Notes under the pieces: generated by a model
What the model was told of the DNA's origin: nothing
Databases searched by the model: none
The model's input: the letters and a program-made list of their open reading frames with translations, nothing else
Shown here: positions 8,310-46,489 of the stretch, one piece after another
Numbering within the stretch: position 1 is the stretch's first letter
How the letters are laid out: each line of letters opens with the position of its first letter
Program-made: the position numbers and the translations under genes
From: Archangium violaceum
GTDB taxonomy: Bacteria > Myxococcota > Myxococcia > Myxococcales > Myxococcaceae
Length of the DNA: 64,000 nucleotides
Direction of reading: 5' to 3'
NCBI RefSeq assembly: GCF_016887565.1
Contig: NZ_CP069396.1
Coordinates: 10,894,001-10,958,000 of the forward strand

Positions 8310-10109
8310 GTGCCCCCCCGGTCCCTTCGCGCACTCACCGTCCTGATCGTCCTTTGCTCCGGGGCATGTGCCACCGCCCCCGGCGGACCCCAGGCCTCCC
8401 GCGACACTCCGGAGACGCCCGCCCCCGCCCAGGTCGAGGCCGACCCCTCTCCCACCCCCCCGGCCTCCGGGGACCCCGTCCTGGAGGCCCGGGTGGAGGA
8501 CCTCCTGGCCCGCCTGTCCCTCGAGGACAAGGTGGGGCAGTTGATGATGGTGGGCTTCGCCGGCACAGAGGTGGACGAGTCCGTGGAGGCGCTGGTGCGG
8601 GGCCGCCGGGTGGGCGGGGTGTGCCTCTTCAAGCGCAACATCGTCACCGGCGAGCAGGTGGCCCGCCTCAACGACGGCCTGCGCCGGCTGCTGGCGGACG
8701 CCATCCCCCCCTTCCTGGCGTTGGATCAGGAGGGGGGCAACGTGGTGCGGGTGAACGACGACGTGGTGGTGCTGCCGGGCAACATGGCACTGGGGGCCAC
8801 GCGCTCGCCCGAGCTGGCGTACGCCGCGGGCCACGCCCAGGGGGAGGACCTGGCGCGGCTGGGCTTCAACATGAACCTGGCGCCGGTGCTGGACGTCAAC
8901 CTCAACCCGCGCAACCCCGTCATCGGCATCCGCTCCTACGGGGACTCGGTGCCGCTCGTGTCCGAGCTGGGGCGGGCCTTCGTGCGCGGCCAGCAGGACG
9001 CGGGGCTCGTCACGGTGGCCAAGCACTTCCCCGGCCACGGGGCCACGGACGCCGACAGCCACACGGCCCTGCCCGTCATGCGCGAGTCCCGCGAGGAGGT
9101 GCTCGCCCAGATGGAGCCCTTCCATGCCGTCATGCGCGACGGGCTGGACGGGCTGATGACGGCGCACGTGGCGGTGCCCGGCCTCACCGGGGACGACGTG
9201 CCGGCCACCCTCCACCCCCAGGTGCTGGGCGGGCTGCTGCGCCAGCGGCTCGGCTTCCAGGGGCTGGTACTCACCGATGAGTTGGAAATGGACGCCATCG
9301 CCCAGCGCTATGGCGTGGGCCGGGCCGCGGTGATGGCGGTGAACGCCGGGGCGGACATGGTGCTCATCCCCTGGCGGCCGGAGAAGAAGACGGAGGTGTA
9401 CGAGGCCCTGCTGGCCGCCGCCCACGACGGAGCCATTGCCCGGGAGCGGCTGGACGAGGCGGTGCGCCACATCCTCACCGCCAAGGTGCGCCGCGGCCTC
9501 TTCGAGCCCCCGCTGCTGCTGGAGGAGCGCCTGGCCACCCCGCCCTCTCCGGAGCACGCCGAGGTGGCCCACCGCATCGCCCGCGCCGCCGTCACCCTGC
9601 TGCGCACGGACGGCAAGCACTTCCCCCTGGCGACGGACGCGCGCCTGGCCGTCATCACGGCCGAGGACTCACTGGGCGAGGCCATCCGTGCCCGGGCGCC
9701 CCACGCCCAGGTGCTCAACGTGCCCGCCTACCCTTCCAAGGCACGCCGCTCCGTCCTGCGGCAGCAGGCGCGCCGGCTGGCGCTCTCCGCGGACGTGGTG
9801 GTGGTGGGCGTCATCAACTCGCGCCAGCTCGAGCTCGTCACCATGGCCGCCGCCACCGGCCGCCCGGTGCTCGTGGTGTCCATGGGCCTGCCCTACCTCG
9901 CCGAGCTCGCCGACGAGGCACGGGCCGTGCTGGCCATCTACTCCTACCAGCCCGTGGCCACCGAGGCCGCCGCCGCCGCCCTCTTCGGGGAGATCGGCAC
10001 ACCGGGCCGGCTCCCCGTGGGGCTGAGCCGGCTCGCCTTCGGTCACGGACTGGACGCTCCGCGCGGGGGCGGAAGCGGGGCGCTGCGCACGGAGCGCAGC
10101 GCCCGCTGA
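8310..10109 (+). CDS. Glycoside hydrolase family 3 lipoprotein (beta-N-acetylhexosaminidase, NagZ-like)
   Basis: A probable lipoprotein (hydrophobic segment ALTVLIVLCSG then Cys) with a GH3 TIM barrel. NagZ-type motifs are LALDQEGGNVVRV, PVLDVNLNP, the catalytic His loop KHFPGHGATDADSH (about residue 237) and the Asp nucleophile in VLTDELEMDA (about residue 322). A second alpha/beta domain follows to residue 599, as in two-domain GH3 enzymes. The likely substrate is GlcNAc-containing glycans such as peptidoglycan fragments, acting at the envelope. I chose the GTG at 8310 because it gives the signal sequence directly; the longer in-frame extension to 8088 overlaps the PTS gene. The gene converges on hpf with one base between stops. 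Confidence 0.9.
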   Translation: MPPRSLRALTVLIVLCSGACATAPGGPQASRDTPETPAPAQVEADPSPTPPASGDPVLEARVEDLLARLSLEDKVGQLMMVGFAGTEVDESVEALVRGRRVGGVCLFKRNIVTGEQVARLNDGLRRLLADAIPPFLALDQEGGNVVRVNDDVVVLPGNMALGATRSPELAYAAGHAQGEDLARLGFNMNLAPVLDVNLNPRNPVIGIRSYGDSVPLVSELGRAFVRGQQDAGLVTVAKHFPGHGATDADSHTALPVMRESREEVLAQMEPFHAVMRDGLDGLMTAHVAVPGLTGDDVPATLHPQVLGGLLRQRLGFQGLVLTDELEMDAIAQRYGVGRAAVMAVNAGADMVLIPWRPEKKTEVYEALLAAAHDGAIARERLDEAVRHILTAKVRRGLFEPPLLLEERLATPPSPEHAEVAHRIARAAVTLLRTDGKHFPLATDARLAVITAEDSLGEAIRARAPHAQVLNVPAYPSKARRSVLRQQARRLALSADVVVVGVINSRQLELVTMAAATGRPVLVVSMGLPYLAELADEARAVLAIYSYQPVATEAAAAALFGEIGTPGRLPVGLSRLAFGHGLDAPRGGGSGALRTERSAR

Positions 10110-10993: not shown

Positions 10994-12517
10994 TTACAGC
11001 GGTAGCTCGATGACGAAGGCGGCGCCCCCCCCGCTCGGTCCCTGCTCCACGTGCACGCGGCCGCGGTGTCCCTCGACGATCTGCCGCACGATGAAGAGCC
11101 CCAGGCCGAGGCCTCCCGCGCGCGCCGGACCGTTCACCTGCTCGTAGCGAGCGAAGACGCGCTCGCGATCTGCCTCGGGAATGCCCGGGCCCTCGTCACT
11201 CACCACCAGCCGGGCGCCCGTGGGGGTCCGCTCCAGCCGGACCTCCACCGGACTGCCCCCGCCGTAGCGCAGCGAATTGGATAGCAGGTTGAGCAGCACC
11301 TGCTCGATTCGCAGCCGGTCGAAGCTCCCCACCAGCGGCGCCTCCACATGAGCGGTGAGGCGCACGCCGGCCTGACGCGCCTCGTCCGCGGTGCGCGTCA
11401 CCAGCTCGGACACCACCGTCGACAGGTCCTCGGTGGCGAAGTCGAAGTCCAGCTTGCCGTGCCGGACGCGGCTGACGTCCAGCAGGTTGTCCACCAACAC
11501 ACGCATGCGCCGCTGCGCCCGCTCGGTGGCCTCCAGCCGCGCCTGCACCTTGGGAGAGGACAGGGGCATGGAGGCATCCGCCGCCTCCAGCCGCCGCAAC
11601 ATCTGCATCTGGAGCAACAGGCTGGCCAGCGGCGTCTTGAGCTCGTGACTGGCGAGCGACAGGAAGTCGTCGCGCACGCGCACCGCCTCCTGCAACGCCA
11701 GCTCCGCCTCCTTCAACTGGGTGATGTCGAGGATGGCGCCGCGCACCACCAGGGGACGTCCCTCGGCATCGCGCATCACGCGCGCGCGGCTGGTCAACCA
11801 GTGCCACCGACCATCCAGCCACCGGACGCGGAAGGTGGAGGTGTAGGCCAGCACCCGGGTGGAGAAGAGGGCCGTCACCTGCGCCTCCACGTCCGGGAGA
11901 TCCTCCGGATGCACCGAGGCCAGGAACTTCTCGTGGGTCCACTCCGGAAGGGGCTCGGGGTAGCCGTAGAGCCGGTCATGCCCCTCGGAGCGGAACACCT
12001 GTCCGGTGGCCAGGTTCGTCTCCCAGACGGCCATCTGCGCGGAGTCGAGCGCCACCTGGAAGCGCTCGCCCAGCAGGCGGAAACGCTTCTCGGTCTCCTC
12101 CACCAGCGCCTGGGCCTCCTCGCGCTGGGTGATGTCGGTGGCGAGCACCCACAGCTCGTCGCGCACGGGGGAGGCCGACACCTCCACCCAGGCCCGCGAC
12201 GGCAGCGCGGCCAGGAAACGCGTGGGCTGGCGCGAGTCGAGCACCACCAGCAACCGCTCGTGCAGCGTGCGGCCCATCAACGCGGGCACCGCCATCCACG
12301 GCTCCCGGCCCCGCAGCCGCTCGAGCTCCACGCCCAGCAGCGCCGCCGCCCGCGCATTGCACTCCAGCACCCGCCCGCGCGCATCCAGTGAGAGGAAGGC
12401 CTCGGACATGTGCGCGAGGAGCAGCCGCAGCCGCTCGTCGGCGGGAAATGCCGTGCTCACTCCCCCAAGGTCGCTGGCGGGGGCCGCTCCGTCAAGGACG
12501 GCACGGCCCCCACCCAT
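10994..12517 (-). CDS. PAS-domain sensor histidine kinase (cytosolic)
   Basis: A soluble sensor kinase with no membrane segment. The first PAS domain covers about residues 25-130 (MSEAFLSLDARGRVLECNARAAALLG). The second covers about 150-270 and is PAS3-like (LYGYPEPLPEWTHEKFLASVHPED, WRWLTSRARVMRDAEGRP-type PAC tail). The HisKA box is DFLSLASHELKTPLASLLLQMQ with the phospho-acceptor His. HATPase_c motifs are LLNLLSNSLRYGG (N box), VVSDEGPGIPE (G1) and GGLGLGLFIVRQIVEGH (G2). No receiver domain is attached and no response regulator is adjacent, so it is an orphan kinase. The start at 12517 has no clear ribosome site; GTG at 12463 is possible. The gene lies downstream of the PilY1-like gene on the same strand. 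Confidence 0.9.
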   Translation of the reverse strand: MGGGRAVLDGAAPASDLGGVSTAFPADERLRLLLAHMSEAFLSLDARGRVLECNARAAALLGVELERLRGREPWMAVPALMGRTLHERLLVVLDSRQPTRFLAALPSRAWVEVSASPVRDELWVLATDITQREEAQALVEETEKRFRLLGERFQVALDSAQMAVWETNLATGQVFRSEGHDRLYGYPEPLPEWTHEKFLASVHPEDLPDVEAQVTALFSTRVLAYTSTFRVRWLDGRWHWLTSRARVMRDAEGRPLVVRGAILDITQLKEAELALQEAVRVRDDFLSLASHELKTPLASLLLQMQMLRRLEAADASMPLSSPKVQARLEATERAQRRMRVLVDNLLDVSRVRHGKLDFDFATEDLSTVVSELVTRTADEARQAGVRLTAHVEAPLVGSFDRLRIEQVLLNLLSNSLRYGGGSPVEVRLERTPTGARLVVSDEGPGIPEADRERVFARYEQVNGPARAGGLGLGLFIVRQIVEGHRGRVHVEQGPSGGGAAFVIELPL

Positions 12518-12580
12518 GGAGGATGAACAGGCGGTGATTGTGAAAGGTCACATTCCGACAACACCCCACATACGCTCGGG

Positions 12581-15500
12581 TCACTCCAGACAGGCCTGTG
12601 CGTTCTCGTGACGACAGACGTGCAGGTTGCGCGGCACCTCCAGCCAGTAGATGTCCGGAGCGGAGTTCTCGCGCTCGCGCAGCGTCTCCGTCACGGGCGC
12701 CGAGCCCACGCCCGGCATCACCACCTCGTAGCGCACGACGCCCGAGGCGGACACCGAGACGACCGCCGCGGGCTCGGGAGGCGGAGCCCACGCATCACGC
12801 GTCTTGGAGGGAAGGAACCCGAGCGGATTGCCACTCGCGTCCACCAGCTGGAAGCCGGCCGACTGGTCCGGCAGCCCGGTGATGACGTCCGCCTGCCACG
12901 AGCGGCTGATGTCCCCCGAGCCCACCAGCTTGCAGGCCGACACGGTGGCGCCAGCGGGGGGCGAGAAGCTGGGCCAGAACACGATGCCCCCCAGCACGGC
13001 CGAGCCCGCCGCCGTCTTCTCCTGCGGGCCCCCGTACCGCATGAACCAGCCCGGTCCCTCTGGAGTCCCCCGCGAGAGCGACGCCAGCGTGCTCGTGGGC
13101 ACGTAGCGCACGGGGCCCTGCGTCGGGTGCACGTAGGTCTGATAGGCGCTGTCGGGGATGGTGACATCCACCAGCGAGCCGTCTTCCGTCAGGCGTCCGC
13201 TGTCGAACACGAGGGCCTCGGCCGCGTCGTGGAAGCGGCGCTGCCAACCCCCATACGCATGGAAGCCGAAGTAGCGGTTGTGGGGCACCTTGTCGGCATC
13301 CGCGCCCAGGTCCAGGTCGCCATGCGAGTCGGTGGGCAGCCGTGCCAACGCGCACGACCACTCGCCGCCCGCCTTGGAGCACTCGGCGTCGGTGCTGGCC
13401 GGAGCCGTCCCCGAAGCGGGGAAGCGATAGGAGCCATTGCCCAGGGCCGTGCTCTTGTCGCACCGGATGCGGAGACCGGTCAGCTCCATCCGCGTGGACG
13501 AGCACGTGGCGCCCACCGAGCCCGAGAGGGATCCGGTGTCCTCCACCAGTACCCCATCGTCGTACTCGAGCACGGACGTGCGCAGCTGGCCGTTGAGGTC
13601 GGCGGTGAGCTCCGCCCTCACGTCACACTTCATCCGCACGCAGGCCAGCAGGTCGTCCGGGCCGCAGTTCGTGCCCTCCTTGGAGCGCAGATGCTGCCGG
13701 TCACCGGTGCCCAGGAAGGCGCGCAGCCAGCCCGTCTCCGGCTGACGCACGGTGGAGGCGAGGTGGAAGAAGGGCTGCTTCTGGTGGGCCTTGCCCTCGC
13801 GCGCCATCTCCAGCGAGCGCGCACCGAACCAGTTCGTCACCTGCCCGTCGCTCCCCAGCACGCCCGGCTCGTGGAAGCGGAACGTCCACACCTGGCCGCC
13901 CAGGTCTCCGACGACCAGGGTGTCGAAGAAACCATCCAGGTCGATCCGCAGATCCTCGGCGCGGCCGATGTCCACCAGGGCCGGAGCGGCGGCGATGGGC
14001 ATCATCCGGTGGAGGACCTCGTCCGTGTACGACCACAGCTTCTGTCCCGTCCAGGCATCCAGCATGTACACACCGCGGCCCCGCGAGAGGTCGGCGCTGT
14101 AGCCGCCGTTGAGCATGGCGATCCACCGCTCCTCCCAGCCGCGCGAGTTGCCCTTCGCGAGCCGCACCGGACCCATCGGCGGAGGCTTGGGCGCGAAGTT
14201 CGTCCAGGACTGGCCCATGGCGCTCGACTCCGCGTCACACGAGTTGGGGAACATCCAGCGGAAGGGCTTGCCATCCGGCTTCAGCATCTCGCGCGGGTTC
14301 GTCACGTCCAGCGCGACGAAGCGCTGTCCGCCGGAGCGCTCGGTGAGGATGGCGAGGGTGTGGAACTCATTGGCCTCCTTCACGTCGTTGGCGGCGCTCC
14401 CCGCGGAGCCGTCCGCCCAGAGGTCGCGCACCATGGCCGTGCCATCCACGTAGAACTCATGGCCATTCATCATCAGGCCCAGCTTGGGCAGCAGATCCGG
14501 CGGGATGAAGGCCCACAGTTCCTGGCCGGTGCCCAGGTCGTGCACGTCGTCGAAGGCGTTCTTCTTCTCCCGGGAGGAGATGGGCGCGCCCGCGTGCACG
14601 GCGTGGAGCATGCCGCCATTGGAGCCCACCAGCACGATGCGCTCGCGCCCGGCGTACGCCTCGCGGAACACATCATAGGCCCCGTACCTGTTGGGGCTGG
14701 AGCCAGGAGGCGGGTTCATCGGCGTGGCCGCGTAGCAGGGCTTGCCCGCGGCCGGCGTGGAGCATGACGTCTCGGAGGACACCGACGCGGTGAAGTCCTC
14801 GTAGAGGGTGGACAGACACTGACCGCTCAGCCCCAGCGAGCACAGCAGGGGCTCGACGGGCGGGTCCACCGTCACCGGCGCGGAGTGGAAGATGTCCGCG
14901 AGCTTGCAGGAGCGCGAGACATCGTCCGAGCACGGCCGGTCCTCGTCGGTCACGAGGTCCCCGTCGTAGTCGAAGACATCCGCGCCGCGCACGAAGGCGA
15001 TGAGCAGATCGACACACGCGTCCTGCTGCGCGGCCGTGCCCGTCCAGGCCTTCCGCAGCCTCGCGAAGGCCCCGGCGCAGAAGCCATCACCCGCCGCCAG
15101 CAGGTACTGCTTCAGCTCGGCCCGGTGGGCCAGGTCGAAGGGAAGGGGCGGGTTGTCCGCCGCGGTGAACCGGCCATCCTTGTCGCGGTCGATGAGCGTG
15201 AAGACGCAGCGGCCCCCGGTGGAGTCGAGCGGGGCATCCGGATCACACGGGACGCTCGCGCTGCGCTTGCCGAGCGTCTCCGCCAGGTCCCAGAAGGGCT
15301 GTGCCGGGGTGCCTCCCACCAGCCGGCCCTCACTGTTGACGGTGGCCGTCTTCACCTTCACCCAGGCACCGTCCACGTTCTCCTGGACGATGTTGTCGCT
15401 GGTGAAGCTGGCGACGTCCGGCAGCGCGCCCGGCACGGTCGTGAAGCCGGCCGGCCTGTCCATGAAGAACGTGTCATCACAATCCTTGTCGCCATTGAGG

Positions 15501-36528: not shown

Positions 36529-37116
36529 CTACGGCGTCTGTCCGCCCGCCCGCGAGAGACTCCAGTCCCAGCCCACGACCGCCCACTCGTCCGTCTCATC
36601 CCTGTAGGTGTGGAGGGTCTGGAAGCCGACCCGCTCATGCGCCCGCAGCGAGCGGTGATTGCGGACGGAGACCTCTGTCACGATGAGGTCGAACCGCTGC
36701 TGATAGAGCTCGCGGTGCTCGTGGTAGAGCCGCTCGAACAGCCCCCTGCCACGGTGGGCCTTGTCGATGCAGATCTGCCCCATCACGTAGAAGCGGTGCT
36801 CCTTCAGGGGCTTGCCCCGGTACTCGAGCCGGTCCAGGAGCTCGAACATGGGCACCAGCACGGGCATCAAGTCACGGCACTCGCGCGGCATCATCAGGGC
36901 ATAGGCCACGAGCTCATGGCCCTGATGGGCGACGATGCTGGGAGCCAGGGCATGCATCCGCTCCAGCTCCGGCAGCTCGTGCCGCACGGTCACGAAGCCT
37001 TGCGAGCGCATCTCCTCCGCCGCCAGCTCCTGCTTCAGGTTCTTCCGCTGCAAGACCAGGATCTGCTCGAGCTCCGCTCGGTGTTGCACGGCGGAGACGC
37101 TGTAGGGGCTTTGCAT
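36529..37116 (-). CDS. GNAT-family N-acetyltransferase
   Basis: The product (195 residues from the ATG at 37116) has the GNAT pattern: ELVAYALMMPRECRDLMPVL, then motif A FYVMGQICIDKAHRGRGLFERLYHEH with the acetyl-CoA pyrophosphate loop HRGRGL, and the terminal NHRSLRAHERVGFQTLHTYRD. The open frame continues upstream to 37335, but that part contains no family sequence and would overlap the promoter region of the adenylation gene. The substrate is unknown. Divergent from the Dlt-like cassette. Confidence 0.85.
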   Translation of the reverse strand: MQSPYSVSAVQHRAELEQILVLQRKNLKQELAAEEMRSQGFVTVRHELPELERMHALAPSIVAHQGHELVAYALMMPRECRDLMPVLVPMFELLDRLEYRGKPLKEHRFYVMGQICIDKAHRGRGLFERLYHEHRELYQQRFDLIVTEVSVRNHRSLRAHERVGFQTLHTYRDETDEWAVVGWDWSLSRAGGQTP

Positions 37117-37302
37117 GCCCTGAAGATATACCAAAAAGGCATGCGTCGTCCCCGTCGGGAACTCAGCACTGCATCCAGTGGTCCCGAACACCAACGAACC
37201 ATCGCGGGAGATGCGCATGCGCCCATTTCGCTCCAGCCCTCTCGGGCAGCCCGGCGTTGGGAAGAATGCAACCTCGGACCGATTTGCCCAGGGGGGAAAC
37301 AC

Positions 37303-38970
37303 ATGCCGTGGAATGACACGGGCCGCGGCCGGCACCCAAACCTAGATTCCGCTTCGCGGCCCTCAGTCATCACCCCGCCAGACACGATGAACTACAATCT
37401 CGCGCTCCCGCTCCATCGCAACAGCATCGAGTCCCCGGACAGACTGGCGCTCTCGGCCGATGGCGAAGAGCTGACCTATCGCGAGCTGGCGACACTGGCC
37501 CGGCGGGTCGCGTGCGTCCTGGCCACCACGCTCGCTCCTGGTATCCAACATGAGCGGCAATGGCGTGTCGGAATCCTGGCATCGCGCAGCATCGAGGCCT
37601 GTATCGGTGTCCTCGGTGCGGCATGGTCTGGCGCGACGTATGTCCCCCTGGGTTCGAGACTTCCGGAAGAGCGGCTGCGGACCGTGCTCTCGCTGTGCCA
37701 CCTCGATGCCCTGATCACCGACGCCGAAGGCGCACGCCTGTTGTCGGAGCGCGTGCTCGAGGCCTGTCCCAACCTGCTCCTCGTGCCGGATCCGGCCGTC
37801 CTGAAGAAGACACCCGCGATGCGCGGCAAGTGGCTCCATGGGCTCCGGGCGTTGCCGGATGCCAGGGCGCTCGATGCCCCCGCCCACGTGTCGGCGGACG
37901 ATCTGGCCTACATCGAGTTCACCTCGGGAACGACCGGTGTTCCGAAAGGGGTGATGATCTCCGCGGGAGCCGTCCATCACTACCTGACGATGATGATGGA
38001 CCGCTACCGGTTCACGCCCGAAGACCGTCTCCCCGAGACCTGCGAGCTGAACTTCGACGTCTCGGTCCACGACATGTTCCTGACCTGGGGCGCTGGCGCG
38101 TCGCTGCATGTGCTGCCGCGCAACCAGATCATGAACTCGGTCAGATTCATCCGTGACAAGCAATTGACCGTCTGGGTCTCCGTTCCATCGATCATCGGGT
38201 TGGCGCAGCGGACACGGGCGCTGCGCCCGGGCGTGCTCCCCAGCCTCCGCTGCTCGATGTTTGGCGGTGAATCCCTGTCGGTGGCCGCCGCGAGGGCGTG
38301 GGCGGAAGCGGCGCCCAACAGTGTGATTGACAACCTATACGGGCCGACCGAAGCCACCGTCACCTGCACGGCACTGTGCTACAGCACGCATCCCATCCAG
38401 ACCCCCGGGCGCGATGTGATCGCGATCGGCATGCCCCTGCCCGGTACGCAAGTGGCGATCGTCGACGAGTCACTGAACTTCCTCGCCCCCGGCCAGGATG
38501 GAGAGCTGGCGATTAGCGGGCCACAGCTCGCGCGAGGCTACCTGGGAGAGCCCGAGCTCACGGAGTCCCGGTTTCCGACGATCAATGGCAAACGTTGGTA
38601 CCTGACGGGCGACCTTGCCCGCCGCGACGAAGCCGGTTGCCTGCATCACCTTGGCCGGGTCGACCATCAGGTCAAGATCCTGGGCCACCGGGTGGAGTTG
38701 GAGGAAGTCGAGGCGCACCTGCGCGTCGTCACCCAGGCCGGGTTCGTGGCCGCGCTGGCCTGGCCCATCCAAGGAGCCGCCCAGGGAATCGTCGCTTTCG
38801 TCAGCGGCGAGATGCCTCCCGTGCGGGATGTCCTCGCCCGGATGGCGCAGCGGCTGCCGGAGTACATGGTTCCTCATCGCATCGAGCGGCTCTCCGACAT
38901 GCCGCTCAGCCCGAACGGGAAGGTCGATCGCAAACAACTGCGGGGCCTGCTCGAGGAGGAGAGCCGATGA
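37303..38970 (+). CDS. Stand-alone amino-acid adenylation enzyme (DltA-like)
   Basis: A single A domain of about 530 residues with the full adenylation core: A3 YIEFTSGTTGVPKGVMI, A4 ELNFDVSVHDMF, A5 DNLYGPTEATVTC, A7 KRWYLTGDLARRD, A8 LGRVDHQVKILGHRVELEEV and A10 LSPNGKVDRKQL with the catalytic Lys. No condensation or carrier domain is fused. It would activate an amino acid as AMP ester and load the carrier protein encoded two genes downstream. ATG at 37303 has GGGGGG seven bases upstream; ATG at 37387 is an alternative closer to the domain start. Its stop overlaps the next start (ATGA). Substrate specificity cannot be read safely. Confidence 0.9.
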   Translation: MPWNDTGRGRHPNLDSASRPSVITPPDTMNYNLALPLHRNSIESPDRLALSADGEELTYRELATLARRVACVLATTLAPGIQHERQWRVGILASRSIEACIGVLGAAWSGATYVPLGSRLPEERLRTVLSLCHLDALITDAEGARLLSERVLEACPNLLLVPDPAVLKKTPAMRGKWLHGLRALPDARALDAPAHVSADDLAYIEFTSGTTGVPKGVMISAGAVHHYLTMMMDRYRFTPEDRLPETCELNFDVSVHDMFLTWGAGASLHVLPRNQIMNSVRFIRDKQLTVWVSVPSIIGLAQRTRALRPGVLPSLRCSMFGGESLSVAAARAWAEAAPNSVIDNLYGPTEATVTCTALCYSTHPIQTPGRDVIAIGMPLPGTQVAIVDESLNFLAPGQDGELAISGPQLARGYLGEPELTESRFPTINGKRWYLTGDLARRDEAGCLHHLGRVDHQVKILGHRVELEEVEAHLRVVTQAGFVAALAWPIQGAAQGIVAFVSGEMPPVRDVLARMAQRLPEYMVPHRIERLSDMPLSPNGKVDRKQLRGLLEEESR

Positions 38971-40457
38971 GCGCCACCCTGACTTCCGGCGCGGCCGTTC
39001 CGGCGAAGGCACTGGAGAGCGGGCAATCCGGCATCCGGCGCCTCTTCGCGGTGGAGGCCCAGCCCCGGATCGTCGAGCTCTCGCGGACGACCCTCGGCCG
39101 CCTGCTGATCATCCTGGGCTTCGGGACGCTGCTGTCCCTTCAATACTCCTGGCGGTACTGGCTTCCGGTGATGCTCGGCGCCGCCGCATGCGCGTATGTC
39201 GCGGAGCATCGGATGAAGCTGGTCGCGTTATCGACCTTCGCCGTGCTCGCACTCGGTCCCTTGTGGTTCAACTCGCTCGACGCCGTGGGGGGGCTGGCGA
39301 AGAACGCGGGCATCGAACATCCGAAGGCCGTTCTCTTCCTGGGGTATGGCGCCACGCTCGCGGTCTTCGGGCTCGCGACCGCGCTGCTAGCGCTCCACCG
39401 GCGGTTCATCGACTCGAAGCTCGCGCATTGGCCGGTACTCCTGTTGCTGGGCATTTTCTCGCTCCTCGTGGCGGCCGCGACCGCCACCACGGGCCGTGTC
39501 GAAGGAATCGCGTTGTGGGCGCTGGCCATGACGCTGGGGGCCTACTTCTGGTTCATCTGCTACGCGCTACGCGACCAGGGCTCCAGGAAACCGGTCTCCG
39601 TGGTCGAGCACCTCGGACTGTTCCGGCCGTTCTGGGGCTCGACCAGCGTTTCCTTTGGAAAGGGCGCGGCCTATCTGGCGAGATTCGAGGCCAGGACCGC
39701 CGAGGAGCTGGCGGTGACCCAGCTCAAGGGCCTCAAGCTGCTGCTCTGGGCGCGCGTGCTCCTGTACGCCCGGGAGGCATGGAGCACCCTTGTCCACCAG
39801 GAGCTGGGTATTCCCTGGTTCGCCGAGGCCATCGCCTGGCTCACCGGGGGAAGGAGCTTCAGTCCATGGACCGGCTGGGCGAGCCTGGTGCTCTCCAGCG
39901 TCGACCTCGCCCTGGGGATGGCGATCTTCAGCCATACGATCATCGGCTCGGCCCGGATCGCGGGATTCCGGCTGCCGCGGAACATGTGGCGTCCCCTGGA
40001 GGCACGCTCGCTCGCGGAGTTCTGGAACCGGTATTACTTCTACTTCAAGGAGTTGCTGGCCGACTTCTTCTTCTATCCGACCTTCCTGCGGTGCTTCAAA
40101 CGTCACCCCCGGTTGCGGATGTTCTTCGCCACCTTCATGGCCGCCGGAGTGGGCAACGCGCTCTTCCACTTCATGCGGGAGATCGACGAGGTCATCAAAC
40201 ACGGCTGGTATGGCGCGGTGGCCGGATACCAGAGCTACCTGTTCTATTGTCTGGTTCTGGCGCTGGGGGTGGGGATTTCACAGAGCCGCCAGAGGAAGAG
40301 TCGACCCGGCGGTTCGTTCGTCAGGCATTGGGTGCTTCCTTGCACCGGAGTCTGGCTCTTCTTCCTGGTTCTGTATGTCTTCGGACATGAAGACAGAACG
40401 CTCTCCCTGTCGGAACGCTTCAGATTCCTGTTCTTCATTTGTGGAGGGGCGACATGA
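38967..40457 (+). CDS. MBOAT-like polytopic membrane protein (DltB-like)
   Basis: A 496-residue protein with about ten membrane helices (LLIILGFGTLLSLQYSWRYW, AVLFLGYGATLAVFGLATAL, WPVLLLLGIFSLLVAAATAT). Near residue 348 is SLAEFWNRYYFYFKELLADF, which resembles the MBOAT signature. A His lies in a downstream hydrophobic segment (GVGNALFHFMREI, about residue 398) where MBOAT enzymes place the catalytic His. The position between an adenylation enzyme and a carrier protein, with ATGA overlaps on both sides, mirrors dltA-dltB-dltC. By analogy it would move the activated amino acid from carrier to an extracytoplasmic acceptor. The sequence match is weak, so the MBOAT call rests partly on context. 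Confidence 0.72.
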   Translation: MSATLTSGAAVPAKALESGQSGIRRLFAVEAQPRIVELSRTTLGRLLIILGFGTLLSLQYSWRYWLPVMLGAAACAYVAEHRMKLVALSTFAVLALGPLWFNSLDAVGGLAKNAGIEHPKAVLFLGYGATLAVFGLATALLALHRRFIDSKLAHWPVLLLLGIFSLLVAAATATTGRVEGIALWALAMTLGAYFWFICYALRDQGSRKPVSVVEHLGLFRPFWGSTSVSFGKGAAYLARFEARTAEELAVTQLKGLKLLLWARVLLYAREAWSTLVHQELGIPWFAEAIAWLTGGRSFSPWTGWASLVLSSVDLALGMAIFSHTIIGSARIAGFRLPRNMWRPLEARSLAEFWNRYYFYFKELLADFFFYPTFLRCFKRHPRLRMFFATFMAAGVGNALFHFMREIDEVIKHGWYGAVAGYQSYLFYCLVLALGVGISQSRQRKSRPGGSFVRHWVLPCTGVWLFFLVLYVFGHEDRTLSLSERFRFLFFICGGAT

Positions 40458-40735
40458 GCGGTGATGCGAAACAGAAAATCCGGGGCTTCATCGCCGGACT
40501 GCTGGAGGGGCATGCCGGCAACACGGACTTCTCGGACTCCGAATCGCTGTTCCAGAGCGGACGACTGGACTCGATGTCGGCCGTGGAGCTGGTGACGTTC
40601 CTCGAAACGGAGTTCGGAATCGATTTCGCCTACGTCGACTTCGACATCGCGATGTTCGATTCGGTCGATTTGATCGAAGGATTCGTCGCCCCGATGCCGC
40701 GTCCAGCGGCGGGAGGCATGTCGGCCAGGCGTTGA
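40454..40735 (+). CDS. Acyl/aminoacyl carrier protein (DltC-like)
   Basis: A 93-residue carrier protein with the phosphopantetheine attachment Ser40 in LFQSGRLDSMSAVELVTFLE, followed by FGIDFAYVDFDIAMFDSVDL. The LDSM motif and length resemble DltC more than fatty-acid ACPs (which usually have DSL). The start overlaps the stop of the membrane protein (ATGA), and GGAGGGG lies upstream. It is predicted to receive the aminoacyl group from the adenylation enzyme at 37303-38970. Confidence 0.88.
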   Translation: MSGDAKQKIRGFIAGLLEGHAGNTDFSDSESLFQSGRLDSMSAVELVTFLETEFGIDFAYVDFDIAMFDSVDLIEGFVAPMPRPAAGGMSARR

Positions 40736-40737
40736 GG

Positions 40738-40842
40738 GGGAGCGACGCGGAGACGCTACGCGCCGATTGCCGCGCCGGGATTCAGCCGCTGAAGGAGAGG
40801 ACGCCGCGAGTCGAGGGCGGCCTCATCACCACGCTCGGCTAG
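40738..40842 (+). pseudogene. Possible C-terminal coding remnant
   Basis: Directly after the carrier gene a frame without a start reads SDAETLRADCRAGIQPLKER then TPRVEGGLITTLG and a TAG stop. Third positions are nearly all G or C, as in real genes here. No family is recognised, and chance cannot be excluded at this length. Confidence 0.3.
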
Positions 40843-40861: not shown

Positions 40862-41266
40862 CTAGTCGTCCTGGGTGAGGTACTTCAGCAGTTCGTCCTC
40901 GTCCTTGGAGATCATCCGTTCGAAGCCATCGGTCCGGGCGTGGCGTTGGATCTGCATCAGTCCCACGTTGCTGCGCACGAGCACGCCGACCTTCCGGAAG
41001 CCGCCGGTCCAGCGAGGGCGGTGGTGGCGCTCCATGACGGCTTCGAACTCGGGATCGTTCCGGCCGGGGCCAGCCCGGAGATCGGCGAGCAGTGCGTACC
41101 GCGAGCGCCCCAGTGCATCCAGGGCGGCACCGAGCCGCGCGAAGATGCCGTCGAGCTCCTCGAGTGAGGCGAAGGGTGTGCTGCTGCGAACGGTGCGGAC
41201 GATGCTCCTCCGCTCGTCGACGAGGACGGTGAAGTACGCGTCCTGGAAGACCTGCTTGTCTGTCAT
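40862..41266 (-). CDS. STAS-like small cytosolic protein
   Basis: The 134-residue product (ATG at 41266, GGAG eight bases upstream) has the strand-helix alternation of STAS/SpoIIAA-like proteins: AYFTVLVDERRSIVRTVRSS, LDGIFARLGAALDALGRSRY, LLADLRAGPGRNDPEFEAVM, KVGVLVRSNVGLMQIQRHAR. It ends in an acidic tail KDEDELLKYLTQDD. It resembles 23540-23953 in layout. It is preceded by a small CxxC gene on the same strand. Function unknown. Confidence 0.75.
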   Translation of the reverse strand: MTDKQVFQDAYFTVLVDERRSIVRTVRSSTPFASLEELDGIFARLGAALDALGRSRYALLADLRAGPGRNDPEFEAVMERHHRPRWTGGFRKVGVLVRSNVGLMQIQRHARTDGFERMISKDEDELLKYLTQDD

Positions 41267-41298
41267 GGGGCTTGCTCCGGTTACGTGGACAGTAGGGT

Positions 41299-41493
41299 TC
41301 ACCGTAGCTCGCGCTCACGGAGCGAGGCCTGGACGAAGGCATCGAGGAAGCCCAGGTGCCGGTGATCGGCATTCAGCGGGAGCACGAGCGCGGTCCGCTC
41401 GCACCTCGAACAGACGACCCGCAACTCGTCGAGGAAGGTGCCCCACCACTGCCCGGCGGCCTGGAAACGTTCCTTCTGGGTCTGTGTGTGCAT
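41299..41493 (-). CDS. Small CxxC protein, hypothetical
   Basis: The 64-residue frame reads MHTQTQKERFQAAGQWWGTF, then LDELRVVCSRCERTALVLPL and NADHRHLGFLDAFVQASLRE. One CxxC pair and a DHRHLGFL segment suggest a small metal-binding or regulatory protein. GC3 bias fits coding. ATG at 41493 lies 32 bases before the STAS-like gene's transcript frame, so the two may be co-expressed. The family is not recognised and the ribosome site is weak. Confidence 0.5.
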   Translation of the reverse strand: MHTQTQKERFQAAGQWWGTFLDELRVVCSRCERTALVLPLNADHRHLGFLDAFVQASLRERELR

Positions 41494-44729: not shown

Positions 44730-45740
44730 ATGAGGGCAGCGGATCAGGCGAGCCCGCGCGGAAACGTGATGCTCCCGGTGCGCATCCTGGGCACGGCCAG
44801 CGTGCTCCCGGAACGAGTGGTGACCACGGCGGAGCTGGCACGGGAAGTGGGGCGAGATCCCGAGGCGCTGGAGCAGAAGACCGGGATTCGCACCCGCCGC
44901 TGGGCCCCACCCGGCACGCGCATGGCTGACCTGGGCGCCCAGGCCCTCCGCCTCGCCCTGGAGCAGGCCGGGCTGGCCGCGACCGAACTCCGCCGCATCC
45001 TCTTCGTCTCCTCGTCCGGCGGAGACACCCTCGTGCCCGCCACCGCGAACCGGGTGGCCGCTGCGCTCGGGCTGTCCGGCTCGTGTGACGCGTTCGACCT
45101 CAACAACGCCTGCATGGGCTTCCTGTCCGCCTTCGATGTCGCCGCGCGCTCGGTGGCGACCGGACTGGGTCCCGTCGGCATCGTCACGGTGGAGTACAAC
45201 TCGAGGGCCATCTCCCCCACCGAGCCGCGCCCCTATCTCATCTTCGGGGACGTAGCCTCGGCTGTGGTGCTGGGGCCCGGGCCATGGCCCGGTGAGGGAG
45301 TCCTCGCGGCGGCGTTCGGGAACGATGGCAGCCAGCCGCCCGATACAGTGCTCGAACATCCCCTGCGCACCGGGCGCGTGGAGGGTGTCCGGTTCCACAC
45401 CGTCCCCCGCGACATGCTCCGCGTGGTCTTCGAGGCCCTGGACCGCGCCACCTCCCAGGTGTTGGAGCGCTCTGGCTTCCAGCTCGGTGACATCGAGTGG
45501 GTGCTGCCACACCAGCCCAACGGCACCATGCTCCTCGGCATCATCGAGCGGTATGCCATCGAGCCGGCCAGGGTCGTGCCGGTGGTGGAGGAGATCGGCA
45601 GCGTGGCGGCGGCCTCCATCCCCTTCAGCCTCGATCGCCTCCTGCGCACCCGCCCCGTGCGCCCGGGTGACCGGCTCCTCATGCTCGGCGTGGGAGCCGG
45701 AATCTCCTACGGGGCCATCCTCTACCAGGTGGGTGGATGA
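44730..45740 (+). CDS. KAS III/FabH-like 3-oxoacyl-ACP synthase homologue
   Basis: A 336-residue thiolase-fold enzyme. N-terminal ILGTASVLPERVVTTAELAR and KTGIRTRRWAPPG are typical of FabH. The nucleophile is Cys128 in DLNNACMGFLSAFDVAARSV and the His is His261 in WVLPHQPNGTML. Where FabH has GNTSAAS, this protein has GSVAAAS, so the catalytic Asn appears to be Ser291. Relatives without the full triad often catalyse acyl transfer in natural-product pathways. ATG at 44730 has GGAGGA six bases upstream. It is coupled by ATGA to an acyltransferase and then a FabI-like reductase, suggesting a small lipid or acyl pathway. Confidence 0.88.
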   Translation: MRAADQASPRGNVMLPVRILGTASVLPERVVTTAELAREVGRDPEALEQKTGIRTRRWAPPGTRMADLGAQALRLALEQAGLAATELRRILFVSSSGGDTLVPATANRVAAALGLSGSCDAFDLNNACMGFLSAFDVAARSVATGLGPVGIVTVEYNSRAISPTEPRPYLIFGDVASAVVLGPGPWPGEGVLAAAFGNDGSQPPDTVLEHPLRTGRVEGVRFHTVPRDMLRVVFEALDRATSQVLERSGFQLGDIEWVLPHQPNGTMLLGIIERYAIEPARVVPVVEEIGSVAAASIPFSLDRLLRTRPVRPGDRLLMLGVGAGISYGAILYQVGG

Positions 45741-46489
45741 AACGTGATGGGAGCACCCTCCGAACGGCCTGGCTGGCCACTTTCGGGCTGCTGCGTAGGT
45801 ACCACCGCTACCGGATCCTGGGCCTGGAGACCCTGCTCGAGCCGGGCACCCGGCTCATCGTCGCCTACCACGGCCGTCCCCTGGCGTTCGACCAGTGCAT
45901 GCTCACCACCGTCCTCCACGAGCGGCTGGGCTACCTGCCCCATGGCATCATCCATGAAGCCTTCGACCAGCATCCTGCGCTCCGCTGGCTGAAGGAGGGC
46001 CTCGGCTTCGTCACGCGGGACGGGCCAGAGCTGGCAGCGGCGGTGGCGCGCGGCGAGCACATCCTCGTCCAGCCGGGAGGGACGCGCGAGGGCTGCCGGA
46101 GCTTCCGTCACCGCTACCGGGTGGATTGGGGCGAGCGGCTGGGCTACCTGCGCCTGGCCATCCGCTACGGCCTGCCCATCGTCCCCGTCGCCGGGCATGG
46201 GATGGACGACGCCTTCATCGGGCTCAACGATGGATACCAGCTCGGCCGTCGGCTCGGCGCGCCCTGGGGGCTGCCGGTCTGGTTGGGTCTCGGCGCCACC
46301 GGGCTCTGGCCCCTCTCGCTCCCGCTCCCGGTGCGGATGACCCAGTGCGTGGGCCAGCCCATCCACCAGCACCTCGGCGGGCGGGTCGACCCCAATGACC
46401 GCGCGGCGCTGATGGAGCTGCATCGAGAGGTGGGCGGAGCGGTCCAGTCCCTGCTGAACCGTGCACGCACGATGGGAGATGACACATGA
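45737..46489 (+). CDS. Lysophospholipid-type acyltransferase (PlsC-like)
   Basis: A 250-residue protein with acyltransferase-like blocks: LIVAYHGRPLAFDQCMLTTV (catalytic His and Asp, spaced HxxxxxxD rather than the usual HxxxxD), GFVTRDGPELAAAVARGEHI, LVQPGGTREGCRSFRHRYRV (substrate motif) and YGLPIVPVAGHGMDDAFIGL. The pattern resembles the DGAT/hemolysin-type acyltransferases of myxobacteria. It probably acts at the inner membrane. Start overlaps the FabH-like stop and its stop overlaps the SDR start, so all three are translated together. Acyl donor and acceptor unknown. Confidence 0.82.
   Translation: MKRDGSTLRTAWLATFGLLRRYHRYRILGLETLLEPGTRLIVAYHGRPLAFDQCMLTTVLHERLGYLPHGIIHEAFDQHPALRWLKEGLGFVTRDGPELAAAVARGEHILVQPGGTREGCRSFRHRYRVDWGERLGYLRLAIRYGLPIVPVAGHGMDDAFIGLNDGYQLGRRLGAPWGLPVWLGLGATGLWPLSLPLPVRMTQCVGQPIHQHLGGRVDPNDRAALMELHREVGGAVQSLLNRARTMGDDT

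Follow-up and report, generated by a model that had tools for sequence, protein, structure and literature searches.

A conserved adenylation enzyme, MBOAT and carrier cassette in Gram-negative bacteria that combines features of Dlt and AlmEFG

What does a gene set that recalls dltABC do in a Gram-negative bacterium? The question is raised by the myxobacterium Archangium violaceum, whose genome is a single contig of 13.2 Mb. We analyzed a 64,000-nucleotide stretch of it (NZ_CP069396.1, positions 10894001-10958000; hereafter the window), in which a cassette at 37387-40735 comprises three overlapping genes on the forward strand: A (37387-38970), a stand-alone amino-acid adenylation enzyme of 527 residues resembling AlmE, IdnL7, and DltA; M (38967-40457), a polytopic acyltransferase of 496 residues with a membrane-bound O-acyltransferase (MBOAT) fold; and C (40454-40735), a carrier protein of 93 residues. 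A previous reading made from the sequence alone had described three genes joined by ATGA overlaps, and these lie where it placed them, at 38967 (A/M) and 40454 (M/C). The cassette is real, conserved, and, as far as literature searches show, undescribed: among the top-ranked results from the open-licence literature, no title or abstract opening contains an adenylation enzyme-MBOAT-carrier cassette in Gram-negatives. Its best reading, to which we assign a probability of roughly 0.55, is aminoacylation of an acceptor in the membrane or envelope that depends on the carrier and proceeds with no SGNH partner.

The three genes recur as a unit. When 84,980 species genomes were scanned for M relatives carrying any of six short peptide patterns, 13 came back, from the distantly related soil bacteria Rhizobiaceae, Bradyrhizobium, Rhodopila, and Acidobacteriota. 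The order is A-M-C in 12 of them and M-C-A in the Rhodopila locus L033, and the surroundings of the triplet vary between clades. Because all 13 M relatives have A and C adjacent, the association is more than chance. Genome searches added six M loci outside the genus, five with a ligase in the same gene row and four of these with an intact carrier: L088, L090, and L093 hold the full triplet, and L087 is arranged ligase-carrier-M. The Bradyrhizobium triplet L089 has A and M together with a carrier gene (about 8880-9130) that appears frameshifted, by decay or assembly error. The cassette is rare. At an E-value of 1e-30, the window's phylum had M in 2 of 195 genomes, both congeneric. Phylum sampling around the L043 genome gave 3 of 396, class sampling around the L033 genome 1 of 385 (that genome itself), the genus to which the L034 genome belongs 5 of 98, and order sampling around the L042 genome 3 of 397. 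All are rough lower bounds that include the centre genomes, score part of the candidates per genome, and come from overlapping samples. In a tblastn search of plasmids, three records had MBOAT matches, which covered just 15-16% of the query. The M tree places the window in no supported group, and the A tree places it with Rhizobiaceae at 93/94; as the window is not placed with strong support, we claim no donor.

None of the 14 members of the M family matches any Pfam family at E 0.01. The miss by PF03062 is a limit of the detection model and no biological trait, and the fold and histidine still place M in the MBOAT superfamily. The NCBIfam DltB model scores 22.6 bits over residues 306-397 (cut-off 375), and querying the PDB with the M sequence returned nothing at E 1. 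An AlphaFold model built from 14 sequences reached a predicted local distance difference test score (pLDDT) of 76.9 and a predicted template modeling score (pTM) of 0.76. With this model, Foldseek ranked 6bug first (E 6.4e-4), a chain identified as DltB because its partner is the D-alanyl carrier protein; DltB 8jem, PORCN, LPCAT3, HHAT, and MBOAT7 followed, the other MBOATs starting from E 2e-3. DltB was also the best match by structural alignment (Z 21.3 and 21.2; root-mean-square deviation 4.2; 370 residues aligned), followed by MBOAT7 (20.0), PORCN (19.1), HHAT (18.7), LPCAT3 (17.8), DGAT1 (15.3), and ACAT (down to 10.5). The top 26 rows, one per PDB entry, are all MBOATs, with Z from 21.3 to 10.5, and the next row, which is unrelated, falls at 7.3. 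Judged by its predicted structure, M is an MBOAT. The sequence-only reading had proposed this for 38967-40457 and would have given it up had a comparison with DltB revealed another fold; that comparison has now been run, and the fold is that of an MBOAT.

Excerpts of published work describe one histidine as universal in MBOATs and DltB as using His289 and His336 (PMC12148441; PMC11035591). The only invariant histidine of the M family is His401 (14 of 14; codon 40167-40169), our proposed catalytic residue, which corrects the candidate put near residue 398 from the sequence alone. Its pairing with DltB His336 was assigned by order along the chain, the hhalign alignment ending at residue 396. The other histidine is lost. 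FWxRWH, the motif that holds it, occurs in all 30 ordinary MBOAT loci compared from this and related genomes, and profile alignment places the M-family FWNRYY on it (hhalign 95%, E 3e-8), so the equivalent of DltB His289 is replaced by Tyr357 (codon 40035-40037) in 14 of 14. Two invariant asparagines, Asn354 and Asn397, lie near Tyr357 and are candidates for the role of that histidine; across MBOATs, the first conserved polar residue is the FWxRWH histidine in some and an Asn or Asp in others. The loci L087-L090 and L093 also lack the first histidine, with FWNRYY or, in L087, FWNRFY, and the M protein of L086 has no FWxR motif. A C-terminal FXYXXF acyl-shuttle motif of the DltX or PatA type is absent from all 14 M proteins; the one internal match, FFYPTF or FFYPAF at residue 368, is situated within the core, and 4 of the 14 do not have it. 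Nine of the 30 ordinary MBOATs carry the C-terminal motif, one of them in the window genome.

The amino-acid type of A is established by TIGR01733, which scores 334.7 bits (cut-off 317.4) and bears out the earlier assignment as an adenylation enzyme; the DltA models reach 262-271 bits, about half of their cut-offs (476-560). Asp235 is kept in the window enzyme and its 13 aligned relatives. Over the whole length, the best PDB matches include LgrA, a two-domain nonribosomal peptide synthetase (NRPS), at 332.8 bits (summed), 8k4r (289), AlmE (264), and IdnL7 (248.5), with the best DltA at 191. We argue specificity from the pocket region alone, leaving whole-length scores aside and reading pocket residues in GrsA numbering. 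There, the best matches are 8k4r (105 bits), AlmE (4oxi; 91.6), and IdnL7 (6akd; 90.9), and the best DltA scores 52.7. According to passages of one paper, AlmE is specific for glycine, mutations having probed what Leu248 and Cys316 contribute, and the substrates of IdnL7 are Gly, L-Ala, and L-Ser (PMC11253843). The AlmE pocket reads DLHLFCLIA, that of DltA (3e7w) DLMTMCTVA, and that of the window DVHVMGLVT (D-V-H-V-M-G-L-V-T-K as ten residues). Among the relatives, pockets are DLHLFCIIA in Rhizobium L041, L042, and L044, DLHLMCIIA in Shinella L037 and R. alarense L045, DIHFLCLVA in Rhodopila, DNFFMGCCI in Bradyrhizobium, and DIFFFALVV or DVHGIALIF in Acidobacteria. L041, L042, and L044 share 8 of the 9 sites with AlmE, the glycine-setting Leu248 and Cys316 among them, and these Rhizobium enzymes are on that account predicted to use glycine, as is the Rhizobiaceae version of A generally. 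For the window enzyme, Gly, Ala, Ser, or another small residue would fit. Its gate residues, Val and Gly, are both smaller and may admit a somewhat larger amino acid, a weak prediction.

The earlier assignment of C as a carrier holds, with PF00550 matching at 23.6 bits (cut-off 20.8) and 12 of 14 family members doing so at E 0.01. So does the LDSM attachment site: Ser40 (codon 40571-40573), which would bear the phosphopantetheine, is invariant in 14 of 14. The DltC models score 24-28 bits (cut-offs 52-68), and the best PDB match is the D-alanyl carrier 1dv5 at 28 bits. Four matches to the phosphopantetheinyl transferase family (PF01648) in the window genome could prime C. The ACP_for_OlsHI model scores under its cut-off, and a link to OlsHI was dropped, the OlsHI enzymes being unrelated to A and M; according to part of a published account, OlsHI uses a GH3-like enzyme and an alpha/beta-hydrolase (PMC12493201).

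No dltD or dltX had been seen beside the cassette from sequence alone, and the wider searches agree. Neither the window genome nor any of the 13 carrier genomes contains DltD (PF04914); the positive controls, Bacillus subtilis and Lactococcus lactis, were detected. Among 1506 open reading frames (ORFs) of 25-90 residues within 2 kb of 18 loci, none ends in FXYXXF as a DltX would. Dlt equivalog scores (DltA, DltB, and DltC) are as low in the relatives as in the window. The likeness to dltABC therefore survives in its components, an adenylation domain, an MBOAT fold, and a carrier, and fails as a claim of close copy, given the pocket nearer AlmE and IdnL7, the Tyr in place of His289, and the scores below cut-off. 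On these sequence features, the cassette is not a Dlt system and is best described as a variant between AlmEFG and Dlt.

From these parts, we infer the following order of events. A would activate a small alpha-amino acid with ATP and load it onto the phosphopantetheine arm of C at Ser40. Holo-C would then dock on the cytoplasmic face of M, which, via His401, would transfer the aminoacyl group in a single step onto an acceptor held in the membrane, at one of its hydroxyls or amines. This acceptor is most likely a lipid, or an envelope component linked to one, that is already common to all hosts. No SGNH partner and no tyrosine shuttle would take part; direct transfer, as in lipid MBOATs, is favored because M would work without DltD, DltX, or a shuttle tyrosine. 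Confidence differs along this chain: A, M, and C form a functional unit with high probability, A very probably activates an alpha-amino acid, M probably performs the aminoacyl transfer, and a lipid or envelope component is the somewhat favored acceptor. Several observations weigh against this reading. No acceptor gene travels with the cassette, which makes the acceptor guesswork. The confidence of the M model is moderate (76.9), and a single PDB chain passes E 0.001 in Foldseek. The window pocket equals AlmE at only 3 of 9 sites. L086 has M alone, with neither A nor C. The ligase of L087 lacks Asp235 and looks FadD-like, so amino acids may not be the cargo of the M-C core in every host. Finally, an SGNH partner of a family other than DltD may lie elsewhere in the genome: none of 40 scanned neighbors matched an SGNH family at the thresholds used, and of these families only DltD was sought genome-wide.

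Those 40 proteins were chosen from the neighborhoods of the loci and scanned with Pfam. They are varied and many are housekeeping, including malic enzyme, H+-PPase, FTHFS, YicC, YceG, and transport receptors. One companion is a homologous S-adenosylmethionine (SAM)-dependent methyltransferase gene that adjoins the triplet in 6 of 21 loci (Bradyrhizobium L034, L035, L036, L038, and L090, and the acidobacterial L043); L040 retains a 50-residue remnant, and the window, its congeneric counterpart G005, and 12 others have no match. By Pfam, an AMP-binding_C domain precedes the methyltransferase in L034 (weak, E 0.0013) and L043, and not in L090. This arrangement suggests that the carrier-bound amino acid may be methylated in the methyltransferase-bearing version. 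Near both distant acidobacterial M loci lies a sulfatase-superfamily protein (L086, 10443-12413; L087, 11152-13146), which adjoins the ligase in L087, is 3.5 kb from M in L086, and matches LtaS, YejM, or phosphoethanolamine transferases weakly, a faint hint of envelope lipids or polymers. Directly upstream of the L093 triplet and co-directional with it, at 11617-13633, are a PIG-L-like gene (under the Pfam cut-off) and a GNAT gene (Acetyltransf_6), possibly linked to exopolysaccharide.

The main rival explanation is a small-molecule pathway in which M passes the C-bound aminoacyl group to a soluble or exported metabolite, the product being an ester or amide of the amino acid. In its favor, A resembles the adenylation domains of NRPSs, with LgrA at the top over its whole length, and the methyltransferase beside six triplets would suit such a pathway, methyltransferases beside adenylation domains being a natural-product trait; the GNAT and PIG-L-like genes of L093 and two ketosynthases among the scanned neighbors (window 44730-45740; L037 5399-6598) point the same way. 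However, the 40 neighbors, varied and with many housekeeping genes among them, include no match to an NRPS condensation domain or thioesterase family. The sequence-only reading had held that placement of the triplet inside a known natural-product cluster would count against it, and none of these neighbors points to one. Characterized MBOATs are known to act on lipids, proteins, or polymers, which also speaks against a soluble product. We consider this pathway unlikely, although it deserves more weight than the two readings that follow.

The cassette could instead carry out Dlt-type D-alanylation of a polymer, with a DltD-like (SGNH) partner encoded elsewhere in the genome. Gene order, the DltB-like fold of M, and the match of C to 1dv5 are what such a system would present, yet PF04914 is absent from all 14 genomes, M lacks the C-terminal FXYXXF, no DltX-like ORF lies near the 18 loci, the DltA, DltB, and DltC models score far under their cut-offs, and the pocket of A differs from that of DltA; we regard this reading as very improbable. 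Scarcely more credible is a general M-C core for carrier-bound acyl groups, in which the ligase chooses the acyl group and aminoacyl transfer is one version. Three kinds of ligase accompany the core, namely AlmE-like, the Bradyrhizobium kind (28-34% identical to the amino-acid ligases of other loci), and the FadD-like enzyme of L087, where FWNR[YF]Y, the histidine, and the carrier serine are all kept. Against this breadth, a ligase that is not of the amino-acid type is known from that one distant locus, whose M is 34% identical to the window's. 

We retain carrier-dependent aminoacylation of an envelope or membrane acceptor. A more specific proposal, which we advance tentatively, is a third, so far undescribed Gram-negative aminoacylation route, in which an AlmE-type ligase and carrier would serve a divergent, SGNH-free MBOAT that aminoacylates a common membrane lipid or lipopolysaccharide directly, with N-methylation of the amino acid on the carrier before transfer in the Bradyrhizobium and acidobacterial version.

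Within the genus, the cassette is found in 2 of 6 genomes and bears signs of mobility. When the 64-kb window was compared by blastn with 37 kb around the G005 copy, the sole match was 37228-40756, at 96.6% identity; the same block of about 3.5 kb in unrelated flanks indicates that the block, or its flanks, moved at least once. All three frames are open in both copies. Between them, the ratio of nonsynonymous to synonymous substitution rates points to mild constraint on A (0.45) and M (0.54); the value for C (0.94) derives from only 8 changes and is uninformative. A search for a repeat basis of mobility found only weak repeats and no terminal pair. No empty site was seen; G005 has a copy (96%) of the aidB-like gene that neighbors the cassette, but it lies near a contig end. 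At 40784-40811, 28 nt to the right of the cassette edge, a stretch of 26-28 nt recurs at several places in the genus (96-100% identity in the four copies read). Its frame in L070 reads like the C-terminal end of an IS91-type transposase, and the stretch may be a remnant of the event that moved the cassette. A separate repeat of 29-36 nt at 41268-41299 occurs at over 20 sites across genomes of the genus, in copies that are 94-97% identical.

The comparison with G005 also bears on where A begins. The leader (37228-37386, forward strand) is kept with the cassette in G005, whose alignment begins at 37228, and it contains the ATG at 37303 that the earlier reading had taken as the start. The most likely start is instead the ATG at 37387, as the alignments of the closer relatives begin only near residue 23-32 of the long version and the 37303 frame in the G005 copy meets a TAG upstream of 37387. 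By ORF calls, the flanking genes, a GNAT ending at 36529 on the upstream side and 40862-41302 downstream, are both oriented oppositely, so the operon probably consists of just A, M, and C. Farther along the window, at 44730-46489, a FabH-like ketosynthase gene overlaps an acyltransferase-like gene (45737-46489, 5 kb from the cassette; weak PF01553 match of 18.4 bits, cut-off 23). This ketoacyl synthase III and acyltransferase-like pair was rejected as part of the cassette, being 4 kb off and beyond the conserved 37228-40756 block.

If the aminoacylation reading is correct, the cassette would be a pared-down setting in which to study MBOAT transfer from a carrier to an acceptor in the membrane, and rhizobia, acidobacteria, and myxobacteria may hold undescribed amino-acid-decorated lipids or polysaccharides. 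In the excerpts of papers available to us, the carrier-dependent envelope aminoacylation systems described are Dlt and AlmEFG. The cassette shares with DltXABCD the order of adenylation enzyme, MBOAT, and carrier, a DltB-like fold, an equivalent of the catalytic histidine, and the carrier LDSM; it differs in having no DltD, no DltX or FXYXXF that we found, a tyrosine at the His289 equivalent, Gram-negative hosts, scores far under the Dlt cut-offs, and an A pocket nearer by score to AlmE than to DltA. With AlmEFG, the system for glycine transfer to Vibrio lipid A (excerpts of PMC12930378, PMC11253843, and PMC3783018), it has in common a stand-alone AlmE-type enzyme and a carrier, a Gram-negative setting, the lack of DltD, and, in three Rhizobium members, 8 of 9 AlmE pocket sites. 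Unlike AlmG, an LPLAT-domain transferase, its transferase has an MBOAT fold, and in the window pocket Val and Gly take the places of AlmE Leu248 and Cys316. M resembles the MBOATs of the MBOAT-SGNH acetylation systems PatAB and AlgIJ in fold and universal histidine, whereas the cassette would use a carrier instead of acyl-CoA, has no SGNH protein among the scanned neighbors, reads FWNRYY for FWxRWH, and encodes an M that lacks the C-terminal shuttle tyrosine and to which PF03062 is blind. The cassette mixes parts of Dlt and AlmEFG, adds a Pfam-invisible MBOAT branch, and seems to do without both DltD and the tyrosine shuttle.

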